Source of the DNA: Archangium sp.
GTDB lineage: Bacteria > Myxococcota > Myxococcia > Myxococcales > Myxococcaceae
Length of the DNA: 44,946 nt
Direction: 5' to 3'
Assembly (NCBI GenBank): GCA_030695565.1
Contig: JAUYRZ010000097.1
Coordinates: forward strand, 1 to 44,946
The position numbers and the translations under genes were made by a program. The number at the start of each line of letters is the position of its first letter. The first letter of the stretch is position 1. Below are positions 5,300-9,115 of the stretch, one piece after another. The notes beneath the pieces were generated by a model. The model was not told where the DNA came from, searched no databases, and was given only the letters and a program-made list of their open reading frames with translations.

Positions 5300-6688
5300 T
5301 CAGAAGGCGCGCTGGAGCGTCCCATTCGTTCCCAGCATTACGGACGGGCAATACGGGCCGCTCTCCGTGCGGGTCCACCAGACGCCCTGCTCGCGCCAGG
5401 GGGCGAAGCGGTACTCGAAGACGCGCGTGCGCAGGTACCTCGGCGGGGCGTTGGGGAACGGGTTCGTTTCGAGCAGCTTCAACACCGCGGGAGTGTTGGT
5501 GAGCAGGCGTCGTTGCAGCTCGAGCACCCAGGGGTTGCCGGCGCAGGTGCCCAGGGCAGCGAACCACATCTGCCAGTCGAGGCGCGGTTGCCACGGGGCC
5601 ACGAAGGTGGGCCTCCGGGTGACGTCGCCGGGTTTCCAGGGGAACTCATAGGCAAGCCACGTGGCGCCGTCGCTGCTGCCTTCGACGATGATCTCGGCGC
5701 GGCTCTTGGTCATCACCGCGAAGGCGCCGTACGCATTGACGGTGTGGAAGCGGCGAACCACGTCGACCCGTCGTCCTGCGAACATCGCGATGCTCAGCAA
5801 GGTGAAGGTGGCGGCGATGAGCCAGGGCCAACGGGTGACGGCCCTCTCCCCCTCGGGGCCCTCGGGGAGAGGGAGCACGCGGTCATCGAGCAGCGGGATC
5901 GCCAGAACGAAAGTAAGCAGATTGTAGAAGCTGTAATTCCCCGCAGCGAACAGAGCGGCCTGCAGCGCCATCAACCCCATCCCCGAAACGATCCGAACCC
6001 GCCGGGGACCCAGCGCCATCACGGGGACCACCAACTCGAAGGCGAACATCGTCAAACACATCGCCTTCTGAACCCACATCGGCAACGCCGCGATCATCAC
6101 GCTGCTCCACGTCGGCAGAGGCTGCGACCACCAGTGGTAGGTGAGCGCGGTCAAATCTCTCCACGTGGGATCGCCGCTGCTCAACTTCACGATGCCCGAC
6201 TGCAGCGTGACCTTGCACGCGAGCACGATCATCACCCACCGGAACGCGGAATGAGGTTCAGGCTCACTCTCCAGACGTGGACGCAGCCCCGGCGGCGCGA
6301 AGAACGCTGAACAGAACGCGGCCTCGACGAGCAACACGTCCCATTGAAACGCGAGAAACGGGTGACCCAATTGCACCAGCGACAGCCAGCTCGCCCACAA
6401 CACGATGCAGGCGATCCGAGGAGCGACGCCGATCACCAACAACACGCCACTCGAGAACGCGACCGCACACAGCAGGTGCAGCATCACGTCCGACGACGAG
6501 ATCCACAGCAGCGTGGGCACATCGAAGAAGCCCAGGCCCGGAGCCTGCCGCACCGACTCCATGGTGGCGCCTAAGGGGGCGATGCCCTGCATCCCCGCGA
6601 GGCCGGGCAGCTGCCACCAGTAGCTCCCCACGGCGACGAGCGTGGTCAACCCCAGCCCGATGAAGAACAGCCGTCGCGTGCGCCGCAT
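5300..6688 (-). CDS. Lipase maturation factor (LMF) family membrane protein
   Basis: A 462-residue polytopic membrane protein. Family landmarks are FQWDVLLVE (115-123), the segment SGIVKLSSGDPTWRDL (164-179) and AGNYSFYNLLT (249-259). The C-terminal third is soluble and rich in Trp, with the typical DWQMWFAAL segment. In animals LMF1 helps lipases fold in the ER; the bacterial role is not established. It is the first gene of a probable operon with the DprE1/DprE2-like pair. Residues about 271-284 (VLPLPEGPEGERAV) are encoded by a copy of the interspersed palindromic repeat, placed in the loop after a transmembrane helix. Confidence 0.82.
   Translation of the reverse strand: MRRTRRLFFIGLGLTTLVAVGSYWWQLPGLAGMQGIAPLGATMESVRQAPGLGFFDVPTLLWISSSDVMLHLLCAVAFSSGVLLVIGVAPRIACIVLWASWLSLVQLGHPFLAFQWDVLLVEAAFCSAFFAPPGLRPRLESEPEPHSAFRWVMIVLACKVTLQSGIVKLSSGDPTWRDLTALTYHWWSQPLPTWSSVMIAALPMWVQKAMCLTMFAFELVVPVMALGPRRVRIVSGMGLMALQAALFAAGNYSFYNLLTFVLAIPLLDDRVLPLPEGPEGERAVTRWPWLIAATFTLLSIAMFAGRRVDVVRRFHTVNAYGAFAVMTKSRAEIIVEGSSDGATWLAYEFPWKPGDVTRRPTFVAPWQPRLDWQMWFAALGTCAGNPWVLELQRRLLTNTPAVLKLLETNPFPNAPPRYLRTRVFEYRFAPWREQGVWWTRTESGPYCPSVMLGTNGTLQRAF
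5840..5874 (-). repeat. Interspersed palindromic repeat, copy 3, inside the LMF gene
   Basis: CCCTCTCCC (5842-5850) and GGGAGAGGG (5865-5873) are fully within the coding sequence and keep the frame. They encode a Pro/Glu/Gly-rich loop between membrane helices. Confidence 0.85.
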
Positions 6689-6747
6689 TGGGTCGAACGA
6701 TTAGTTCATCTCGGAACTGGGCACGAGCTGGGGGTTACAGTGCAGCC

Positions 6748-7431
6748 ATGTGTGGGCGGTACGTGCTCAAGGCCAGCGCGCTGGATCTCCGGCGGGAGTT
6801 CCGCCTCGACGAGGTGCCGTCGCTCGCTGCCCGCTACAACATCGCGCCGATGCAGGCCGCGCCCATCATCACGGACGCTGCGCCGAAGAAGCTGACCATC
6901 GCGCAGTGGGGGTTGCTGCCGCACTGGGCGAAGAACGCGAAGATCGCCCATCAGCTGATCAACGCGCGGGCTGAAACGCTGCACACCAAAGCCGCCTTCA
7001 AGGCGCTGCTCACCACCCACCGTTGCCTCATTCCGGCGGATGGCTTCTACGAGTGGCGGCATGAAGGCCGCAGCCGGCTGCCGCACTTCGTGCATCGGCC
7101 TGATGGGCACCTGCTGGCGATGGCCGGGTTGTGGAGCCGCTGGCGCTCCCCCGATGGCCTCGACCTCGACACCTTCGTCATCATCACCGCGGGTGCGAAC
7201 GCCGAACTGCAGACCCTGCACGATCGCATGCCCGTGTTTCTGGATGAGGAGGGCCGCCGGCGCTGGTTGTCGGGGCCGACCCGGGACTTCGCTGCTTTGG
7301 ACGAGCTGCTCAAGCCCTGGCACGCGTCACCGCTCGTGGCCACCGAGGTCTCCCAGCACGTGAACTCGGTGCAGGTCGACGACGCGGCGTGTCTCGCGCC
7401 GCCCGCGACCCAGCAACTTCGGCTGATTTAG
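6748..7431 (+). CDS. yedK: SRAP domain protein (YedK/HMCES-like abasic-site sensor)
   Basis: A 227-residue SRAP protein. Cys2, exposed after Met removal, is the residue that crosslinks to abasic sites in single-stranded DNA. Other active-site positions are present: Asn31 in NIAPMQ, Asn72 and Arg74 in NARAET, Glu102 in FYEW and His158 in LHDRMP. The start at 6748 is fixed by the requirement for Cys at position 2 (MCGRYVL). Family proteins shield abasic sites as a stable thiazolidine crosslink during replication. Transcribed alone, divergent from the LMF operon, with 59 bp between the two start codons. Confidence 0.93.
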   Translation: MCGRYVLKASALDLRREFRLDEVPSLAARYNIAPMQAAPIITDAAPKKLTIAQWGLLPHWAKNAKIAHQLINARAETLHTKAAFKALLTTHRCLIPADGFYEWRHEGRSRLPHFVHRPDGHLLAMAGLWSRWRSPDGLDLDTFVIITAGANAELQTLHDRMPVFLDEEGRRRWLSGPTRDFAALDELLKPWHASPLVATEVSQHVNSVQVDDAACLAPPATQQLRLI

Positions 7432-7630
7432 GAAAGAAGCGGCGGCCCCCTCGAGGACCTCGTCAGCCCAGCCCACGCCCATCCTCCTCATTTCAGACAT
7501 TAGAGCAGGTCGCCCGAGAGCCGCCGGCCCTCGCCGATCTCGCGCCGATCGTCGAGCGCGGGCATCACGGGCGCGTGACACAGGGTCGCCAACATTTTTT
7601 GGCCACGTCCCTGTTCCGGAGTATCCCACC
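7432..7630 (+). promoter_or_regulatory. Leader region and ribosome-binding site of the rhodopsin gene
   Basis: This 199-bp gap must hold the promoter for the rhodopsin operon. I see no convincing -35/-10 pair. GGAG at 7618-7621 lies 9 bp before a TTG at 7631 and supports that codon as the start. No other gene is seen here. Confidence 0.5.
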
Positions 7631-8413
7631 TTGCTACCCATTGACCTCACAGCGGCACAGTACAGCCTTGTCAGCAACGTGCTCTCGCTTGCTGTTGCAG
7701 CAATGCTGGCTTCATTTGTCTTCTTCGTGCTTTCGCGGCAGCAACTGAGCAGCGCGTATCGACCCGCGATGATCATGTCGAGCCTGGTCGTCGTCATCGC
7801 CGGGTACCACTACCTGCGAATCTTCAGCAGCTGGCACGACGCCTACCACCTCGTGAATGGCGTGTACGTGCCGACGGGGCAACCTTTCAACGACGCCTAT
7901 CGATACGTCGACTGGCTGCTGACGGTGCCTCTCCTGTGCGCCGAGCTGGTGGCGGTCATGAACCTCAAGGCAGGCGTTCGGGGCCCCCTGATGGCAAAGC
8001 TGGTGGTCGCCGCAGCCTTGATGATTGGCCTGGGGTACCCAGGCGAGGTCAGCACAGACACGACGACTCGCACCGTATGGGGCCTGCTTTCGACCGTTCC
8101 TTTCATCTATATTTTGTATGCCCTGTGGTCGGAGCTCTCGAGGGCCGCCGCCGGCGAGTCGGCTGAGGTGAAGGTGCTGCTTCGCAACACACGCTTGCTG
8201 TTGCTTGGAACCTGGGGCTTCTACCCCATCGCCTACCTCATGCCTTTGATGGGGGTCTCGGGCTCGAATGCGATGATCTCGATCCAGGTCGGGTACAGCT
8301 TTGCCGACATCTTCGCGAAGTGCGGCTACGGCGTCATGATTTACGCGATCGCGCGCGCCAAGATGGCAGCGAACGACGAAGTGGCCGAGGGGCCCGCGTT
8401 GAGGTTCGCGTGA
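7631..8413 (+). CDS. Xanthorhodopsin-like light-driven proton pump
   Basis: A 260-residue, seven-helix microbial rhodopsin. Lys230 in FADIFAK is the retinal Schiff-base lysine, with Asp226 four residues before it. Helix C has RYVDWLLTVPLLCAE with Arg91, Asp94 (proton acceptor), Thr98 and Glu105 (proton donor), the DTE set of proteorhodopsin-type outward proton pumps. His60 in GYHYLR matches the acceptor-linked His of that group. Leu102, at the proteorhodopsin position-105 tuning site, predicts green absorption. Gly151 in VWGLLST replaces the bacteriorhodopsin Trp138, as in xanthorhodopsin, where it opens a window for a carotenoid antenna. Start is a TTG with a good GGAG; the next in-frame Met would lose helix A. 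No retinal-forming blh gene is in the window. Confidence 0.93.
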   Translation: MLPIDLTAAQYSLVSNVLSLAVAAMLASFVFFVLSRQQLSSAYRPAMIMSSLVVVIAGYHYLRIFSSWHDAYHLVNGVYVPTGQPFNDAYRYVDWLLTVPLLCAELVAVMNLKAGVRGPLMAKLVVAAALMIGLGYPGEVSTDTTTRTVWGLLSTVPFIYILYALWSELSRAAAGESAEVKVLLRNTRLLLLGTWGFYPIAYLMPLMGVSGSNAMISIQVGYSFADIFAKCGYGVMIYAIARAKMAANDEVAEGPALRFA

Positions 8414-8661
8414 CCAGGCAAGAGGTCGGTCAGGGGCGTGCCGTGGCCAATACGCTGCTCGGCATGGGCGGGGTCGCAGCGATCGGCGCCAGCGCTGCCG
8501 CTTTCGCGAGTCTCGATCTCCGGTTCATCGACCCCTCGAGCATGGCCGCGTTTGGCGCCCTGATGGTGGCCACGGGCCTGATGCAGCATTGGCTGGTTCG
8601 GCAGCCCTCGCCCGCACCCGCTCGTGCTCACGACCGCGACCGCGACCGCGACCGCACGTGA
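8410..8661 (+). CDS. Small two-helix membrane protein coupled to the rhodopsin
   Basis: An 83-residue protein starting at a GTG that overlaps the rhodopsin stop (GTGA), so it is translationally coupled. Two hydrophobic segments, about residues 14-33 (NTLLGMGGVAAIGASAAAFA) and 40-60 (PSSMAAFGALMVATGLMQHW), suggest a membrane hairpin. The tail is PSPAPARAHDRDRDRDRT, whose DR pairs come from a short CGACCG tandem repeat (about 8632-8655). I do not recognise a family. The coupling suggests expression together with the rhodopsin and possibly an accessory or assembly role, which is inference only. Confidence 0.7.
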   Translation: MTRQEVGQGRAVANTLLGMGGVAAIGASAAAFASLDLRFIDPSSMAAFGALMVATGLMQHWLVRQPSPAPARAHDRDRDRDRT

Positions 8662-8737
8662 GTCAGCGGCGGTTGCCACCTCGGCTGTGCATCTCGACTG
8701 CGTTCGATGCGAACGGTGCTGTACGATGTTCGTGCAC

Positions 8738-9115
8738 ATGAGCAGCCCGTGGGACGACGTTCGCAAGGAGTCGCTGGAGATGCCCGCAGTGGGTCGTCAG
8801 ACCACTCCGTCTCCCCTGCCCTGGATGCTGCTGACCGTCTCCATTGCCATGACCATCGGCGTGTTGATCCTCGGGCGCTCTCGGCTGGAAGACGAGCGCG
8901 TGCGGACGGCGACGGCGCTGCGGGCCAACGATGAGGTGAAAGGCCAGCTCAAGTCGGCGATCGAGGATCTCGATCAGTCACGCGCCGCCTGCAACGCGGC
9001 CGACCAGAGCACCGGCGAATTGCAGAAGCAGATCCTCACGCTCGAGCTGGCCAACCGGCGTCAACAGGAAGAGCTCACGAGGCTCAAGAGCGCTGCGAAA
9101 GGACCGAAGCGATGA
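8738..9115 (+). CDS. Membrane-anchored coiled-coil hypothetical protein
   Basis: About 125 residues: a short N-terminal cytoplasmic part, one membrane helix (PWMLLTVSIAMTIGVLILG, about 28-46), then a region rich in Glu, Gln, Lys and Leu that looks like a coiled coil in the periplasm. The start could equally be the ATG at 8726, four codons earlier; neither has a strong ribosome-binding site. It overlaps the next gene by ATGA. No family recognised. The layout resembles small envelope spacer or scaffold proteins. Confidence 0.65.
   Translation: MSSPWDDVRKESLEMPAVGRQTTPSPLPWMLLTVSIAMTIGVLILGRSRLEDERVRTATALRANDEVKGQLKSAIEDLDQSRAACNAADQSTGELQKQILTLELANRRQQEELTRLKSAAKGPKR

Follow-up and report, generated by a model that had tools for sequence, protein, structure and literature searches.

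A probable laterally acquired two-gene light-energy cassette, a xanthorhodopsin pump with a putative two-TM partner, in an Archangium genome with no detectable blh

Light-driven pumps of the microbial rhodopsin type are commonly regarded as the product of one gene, with retinal as the sole further requirement. Within the xanthorhodopsins, mutagenesis indicates that polar residues at positions 208 and 209 of Kin4B8 hold 3-hydroxy-carotenoids, while hydrophobic residues at these positions go with 4-keto-carotenoids in Salinibacter ruber xanthorhodopsin (XR) and in Gloeobacter rhodopsin (GR), which binds keto-carotenoids (PMC12308411). Concerning the supply of retinal, the oxygenase Diox1 makes it from beta-apo-8'/10'-carotenals (PMC5133782), and the actinobacterium Aurantimicrobium has functional xanthorhodopsin-like pumps with neither blh nor diox1 (PMC7734400).

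Here we analyse a stretch of 44,946 nucleotides of contig JAUYRZ010000097.1 from Archangium sp., called the window below, which belongs to a genome of 8.5 Mb listed as 100% complete. It carries a xanthorhodopsin gene followed by a small gene for a protein with two transmembrane (TM) segments (Table 1). We consider it probable that the two form a laterally acquired light-energy cassette, made of a xanthorhodopsin pump and an associated two-TM partner, with retinal made without Blh. What is new here is the unit itself, a pump and a clade-specific two-TM partner inserted together; the original prediction dealt with the rhodopsin and did not mention the co-inserted partner gene or the clean insertion site.

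Table 1 Features of the rhodopsin locus in the window
Feature	Position	Strand	Basis or remark
Conserved SRAP-family gene on the left flank, shared with congeners	6688..7431	+	Pfam, congener comparison
Insert of ~1.3 kb, rhodopsin and small gene only	7432..8738		Three congeners lack it at this site
Shine-Dalgarno-like GGAG, 9 nt upstream of the TTG start	7618..7621	+	Read in the sequence
Xanthorhodopsin-family rhodopsin, predicted proton pump, 260 aa, TTG start	7631..8413	+	Pfam, PDB matches, motif, tree, fold
Small two-TM protein, putative partner, 83 aa, GTG start	8410..8661	+	4-nt overlap (GTGA) with the rhodopsin stop
Right flank, conserved hypothetical ORF	8739..9115	+	Directly after SRAP in congeners

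Taken alone, the rhodopsin is, as judged from its sequence, another member of a known family. Its reading frame matches Bac_rhodopsin in Pfam (E 2e-37), and in the PDB it is nearest, with E values of about 1e-84, to xanthorhodopsins without exception: psXR (9wfa, E 2e-85), GR (6nwd), XR (3ddl) and Kin4B8 (7ytb). The motif set is complete, with DTE in helix C, the helix-G Lys (K230) and the His partner of the counterion (H60). In the alignment, D94, T98, L102, E105, G151 and K230 each lie at the position under which they had been predicted. All of these but G151 are invariant, together with H60, in 85/85 aligned relatives; at position 151, 78/85 have Gly and 7/85 have Ala. The cited residues are thus family-wide and, by themselves, ordinary. 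The AlphaFold2 model contains seven helices (pLDDT 91.8), and the predicted fold matches those of psXR, Kin4B8 and XR with Z values of 34-36 and rmsd values of 0.8-1.3 Å. Motif, phylogeny and predicted fold therefore agree with the original prediction of a proton-pump rhodopsin of the xanthorhodopsin type, and outward proton pumping and a green colour are strongly expected. In the mechanism that we propose, gene 1 would be a light-driven outward proton pump, where D94, paired with H60, would serve as Schiff-base counterion and acceptor, E105 would be the proton donor, and K230 would bind retinal.

In a maximum-likelihood tree of 87 rhodopsins, the window protein is placed among the xanthorhodopsins (relatives of XR, GR, psXR and Kin4B8), as had been anticipated, and not among non-pumping rhodopsins. 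It lies in a clade of 18 rows (support 100/98), drawn from Myxococcota and from unplaced proteobacterial MAGs, with Chloroflexota rhodopsins as the sister group; it pairs there with L007 (94/84), while the most similar sequence is that of L006, at 70% identity. The residue that follows the Schiff-base Lys is Cys231 in 18/18 clade members as well as in the sister Chloroflexota clade, whereas it is Ala in XR and Kin4B8 and Pro in GR and psXR, and an effect of this Cys on the spectrum is possible.

A rhodopsin in a likely myxobacterium had been called notable. The host is indeed a member of the Myxococcota, with the L004 and L009 genomes assigned to the same phylum and family, and the rhodopsin is present, but other Myxococcota MAGs also carry rhodopsins, which are therefore not rare in metagenomes. 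By whole-genome search, PF01036 is present in one of 40 near relatives, and a rhodopsin scores over the family cut-off in 5/195 genomes of the phylum. Two Myxococcota rhodopsins fall outside the clade: L137 (genome G084) is cyanobacteria/GR-like and 57% identical to the window protein, and L138 (G191) is very divergent, being 31% identical and on a long branch.

The small gene belongs to a family, named here family A, whose members have 63-98 aa, two hydrophobic segments and the consensus GHYxxxGxALxGxG ... GFIDxxxM ... GxxM; the window copy is without the GHY motif and keeps FID. Its AlphaFold2 model contains helices at residues 3-32 and 42-63 (pLDDT 77, pTM 0.40). Family-A homologues adjoin the rhodopsin in 18/18 loci of the clade, and the partner-bearing rhodopsins are exactly that one clade (18/18 rows, support 100/98). 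A seed HMM was built from 15 proteins, the first found, and it matched among 17,402 ORFs the non-seed loci L002, L008 and L009, all beside rhodopsins. Second, diverged copies lie upstream in L010 (7538-7756) and L016 (7467-7673), so that the rhodopsin is flanked on both sides; these 17,402 ORFs held no other family-A match below E 0.7. Leave-one-out profiles recovered every seed member, the window copy with an E value of 1.6e-10 against 1.1 for the best background. Genome-wide, family A was found in 17/17 clade genomes and in 0/13 genomes with other xanthorhodopsins, with one locus per clade genome except for a borderline second match in G051 (E 6e-4). A scan of 195 Myxococcota genomes, which scored up to 30 candidates per genome and is a test of specificity and not of discovery, gave the family in three, each time beside a rhodopsin and each already in the profile; none was found in the 190 genomes without an over-cut-off rhodopsin, nor in G084, which has the only Myxococcota xanthorhodopsin seen outside the clade. 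Pfam gave no family common to the members, and no mention of a small xanthorhodopsin partner was found in the literature covered, which included few subscription papers. Family A seems never to have been described before.

The most likely reading of this gene evidence is a physical partnership of the small protein with the pump, in a role that we propose as follows. Gene 2 is probably translationally coupled to gene 1 through the overlap, and its two-TM hairpin would associate with the pump in the membrane, with assembly, stability, an oligomer interface, or retinal/carotenoid loading as candidate roles. Adjacency, overlap and co-inheritance are in themselves no proof of contact, and an alternative that we regard as unlikely is that of an ordinary xanthorhodopsin pump next to an unrelated hitchhiker, or next to an ancestral-operon leftover with its own function, such as that of a small general stress or membrane protein. 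Small two-TM proteins are indeed numerous, but this one has no copies apart from rhodopsin, save for the borderline G051 match, and has been kept in all 18 loci across a deep clade. The distance of 479 nt between the small gene and the rhodopsin in L002 would suit a hitchhiker, but a 4-nt overlap is found in 7/18 loci, the small gene is the sole other gene of the insert in the window, and extra copies flank the rhodopsin in L010 and L016. Likewise, conservation within family A is low (28% mean column identity) and the gene evolves faster, with a higher dN/dS, than rhodopsin, but its dN/dS of 0.18-0.33 in close pairs indicates a protein-coding gene under purifying selection.

Since the 18 partner-bearing rhodopsins form one clade, the association of pump and partner may be a single event, inherited many times; against this, the clade has long branches, which reach 0.6 changes per site, and the two genes stand together in the window's insert. 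Retention of the partner in 18/18 loci and the shared insert suggest an overlooked accessory protein of these pumps. Three residues of the rhodopsin are characteristic of the clade, M121 (17/18 clade rhodopsins against 0% elsewhere), T187 (18/18 against 22%) and M245 (18/18 against 4%), and they are candidates for the interface with the partner.

The small hydrophobic ORFs that follow 81 xanthorhodopsins were also compared all against all, which gave two further families of small two-TM proteins. Family B occurs at eight loci (L026, L040, L044, L048, L062, L068, L070 and L074), 24-131 nt after the xanthorhodopsin, in at least six phyla (Chloroflexota, Bacteroidota, Rhodothermota, Ignavibacteriota, Bdellovibrionota and Tanganyikabacteria); its invariant positions are GxxxGxxFGxxFGxxASxFxxGPxxxxGxxESxxWFxxxG, and it has no Pfam match above cut-off. 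Family C is found at three Deinococcales loci (L057, L058 and L078), where it overlaps the rhodopsin stop. Homology of family A to B or C is unsupported, with hhalign probabilities of 1-2%, which points, short of proof, to more than one independent origin of small two-TM genes next to xanthorhodopsins. We tentatively put forward, as a possibility somewhat short of even, that family A is a dedicated two-TM subunit or loading factor of the myxobacterial xanthorhodopsins and that the unrelated families B and C fill that role for other xanthorhodopsins. If true, light pumps held to be made of one protein would in many cases have a small accessory subunit as well.

The insertion site is well defined by the congeners. 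In three of them (G002, G003 and G005) the SRAP gene and ORF8739 are separated by a junction of only ~10-20 nt, and the flanks are closely similar to those of G003 (80% identity for SRAP, 81% for ORF8739 and 97% for PurA). The conserved start of the right-flank ORF is at 8739, its ORF call beginning at 8624. The flanks on both sides match the congeners in order, for which reason contamination and mis-binning were rejected and assembly error is unlikely. Direct repeats shared by the two ends of the insert, which would mark the boundaries of a mobile element, do not exceed 8 nt, and a scan of the insert for a sigma-70-type promoter gave no match, promoter and terminator scans being uninformative here. 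We infer that the two-gene cassette was gained laterally in the window's lineage, as well as the direction of this transfer.

The pair could instead be ancestral and have been lost in the congeners, which we judge rather improbable. A genome of the same family, G171 (= L009), does possess a rhodopsin and a partner of the same 18-row clade, but this rhodopsin groups with L005 and L020 in another subclade than the window's, and its insertion site differs, since its 12.6-kb contig contains none of the window's neighbour genes. Moreover, tight SRAP-ORF8739 junctions in three congeners are what is expected of an unoccupied ancestral site. Lateral gain thus understood, with clean empty sites in the congeners, implies that light-driven energy capture could join a heterotrophic lineage in one step.

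The search for blh and carotenoid genes called for by the original prediction bore fruit in part: a crt cluster was found, while blh was not and no ketolase could be assigned. No brp/blh gene (PF15461) was detected in the window genome by a search that was positive in 8/20 other rhodopsin-bearing genomes. A blh gene beside the rhodopsin is not the norm of the clade either, only L006 and L022 having it. Since blh was not found, retinal would come through an ACO/Diox1-type route or from outside. The genome encodes two carotenoid oxygenases. The one on contig C127 is by far closest to Synechocystis Diox1/ACO (2biw), scoring 195 bits where the next PDB family reaches 90, and retains all four iron-ligand His; the one on C28 most resembles enzymes that cleave carotenoids at 9,10 and 13,14. 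Contig C49 (in L098) carries the crt cluster, which comprises crtY (397 bits, over the NCBIfam cut-off), crtE, crtI, crtB, a crtD-like gene, a second crtI-like desaturase gene, a crtC-like hydratase gene, and genes for a glycosyltransferase, an acyltransferase and a CarH-like B12-binding MerR regulator. CrtE, CrtB, CrtI and CrtY would make beta-carotene in the host, which would then be cut to retinal by the 9,10/13,14-type CCD together with the ACO-type 15,15'-oxygenase. Such a two-step Blh-free route is plausible because Diox1 forms retinal from beta-apo-8'/10'-carotenals. The C127 gene, whose product has a predicted activity, lies away from the rhodopsin and has counterparts, 56-67% identical, in rhodopsin-less congeners and in one family member without rhodopsin; for this reason the ACO homologue is not dedicated to the window pump, and the host was pre-adapted. 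With a carotenoid cluster, an ACO-type oxygenase and no detectable blh in one genome, blh-independent retinal supply becomes a testable question.

It is very unlikely that the rhodopsin serves as a light sensor, or that its gene is silent, and that it is no working pump: the missing blh, the occurrence in a single genome among 40 near relatives and the insert without a sigma-70-type promoter match might suggest it, but the protein retains the complete DTE motif with its pump-type donor Glu105, as well as His60 and Lys230, no transducer gene adjoins the rhodopsin, the ACO-type enzyme could provide retinal, and the pumps of Aurantimicrobium function without blh and diox1.

The Gly of the carotenoid fenestration is present, as predicted: G151 aligns with Gly156 of XR and Gly153 of Kin4B8, and no model turning it away from the β-ionone ring emerged. 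The pocket is lined by Y202, L203, L206 and M207, which are hydrophobic, with the Tyr at the Kin4B8-204 position. Because of these residues and of G151, the pocket is predicted to be open and of the keto-carotenoid type of XR and GR. A carotenoid of hydroxylated type had also been envisaged, which does not agree with the pocket floor: where Kin4B8 has the Ser208/Tyr209 pair that binds the 3-OH of zeaxanthin, the window protein has Leu206/Met207, and polar residues marking the 3-hydroxy type are not found there. The fenestrated retinal pocket could then accept an antenna of the 4-keto type, and use of a carotenoid antenna by the window rhodopsin is possible. Five members of the same clade (L003, L006, L008, L019 and L023) have Ala for Gly at the fenestration together with Ala at the Kin4B8-205 position (YALL); in this part of the clade the opening is possibly narrowed and the antenna lost.

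The 'myxobacton' esters of myxobacteria, acylated glycosides of a monocyclic 4-keto carotenoid, are chemically close to salinixanthin. The crtC-, crtD- and crtY-like genes, the glycosyltransferase and the acyltransferase would fit a myxobacton-like product, with no ketolase assigned. In the search for CrtW or CrtO, five of the eight FA_desaturase genes were scanned and matched no NCBIfam model; the CrtI-like genes on C28 and C100 were rejected as CrtO, scoring <90 bits against a cut-off of 1000. A 237-aa FA_desaturase-family protein on contig C1 of the window genome (L150, 1408-2121) is a candidate ketolase, with what we take to be a CrtW-like histidine pattern, 'LPHRP...HHELHH'; a plasmid tblastn gave no match for it.

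The locus can be compared with the closest described systems. Kin4B8 from Bdellovibrionota (7ytb, 8i2z) has the fold, the DTE motif and the equivalent of G151 (Gly153) in common with the window rhodopsin, but its close relatives L052 and L075 have blh after the rhodopsin, whereas no blh was found in the window genome. GR (6nwd) and psXR (9wfa) belong to another clade, and cyanobacterial rhodopsin loci are without a family-A partner; their folds are nevertheless very close to that of the window protein (Z 32.9-36.0), and their pocket residues, YLML against YLLM, make the window pocket nearest to that of GR. Finally, XR (3ddl) is ~57% identical to the window protein and lies in a different clade from it, and the XR-group loci L077 and L081 are without the family-A partner, but XR and the window rhodopsin share the fold (Z 34.4), the DTE motif, the His and the Lys, the fenestration Gly, the Tyr and the hydrophobic pocket floor.
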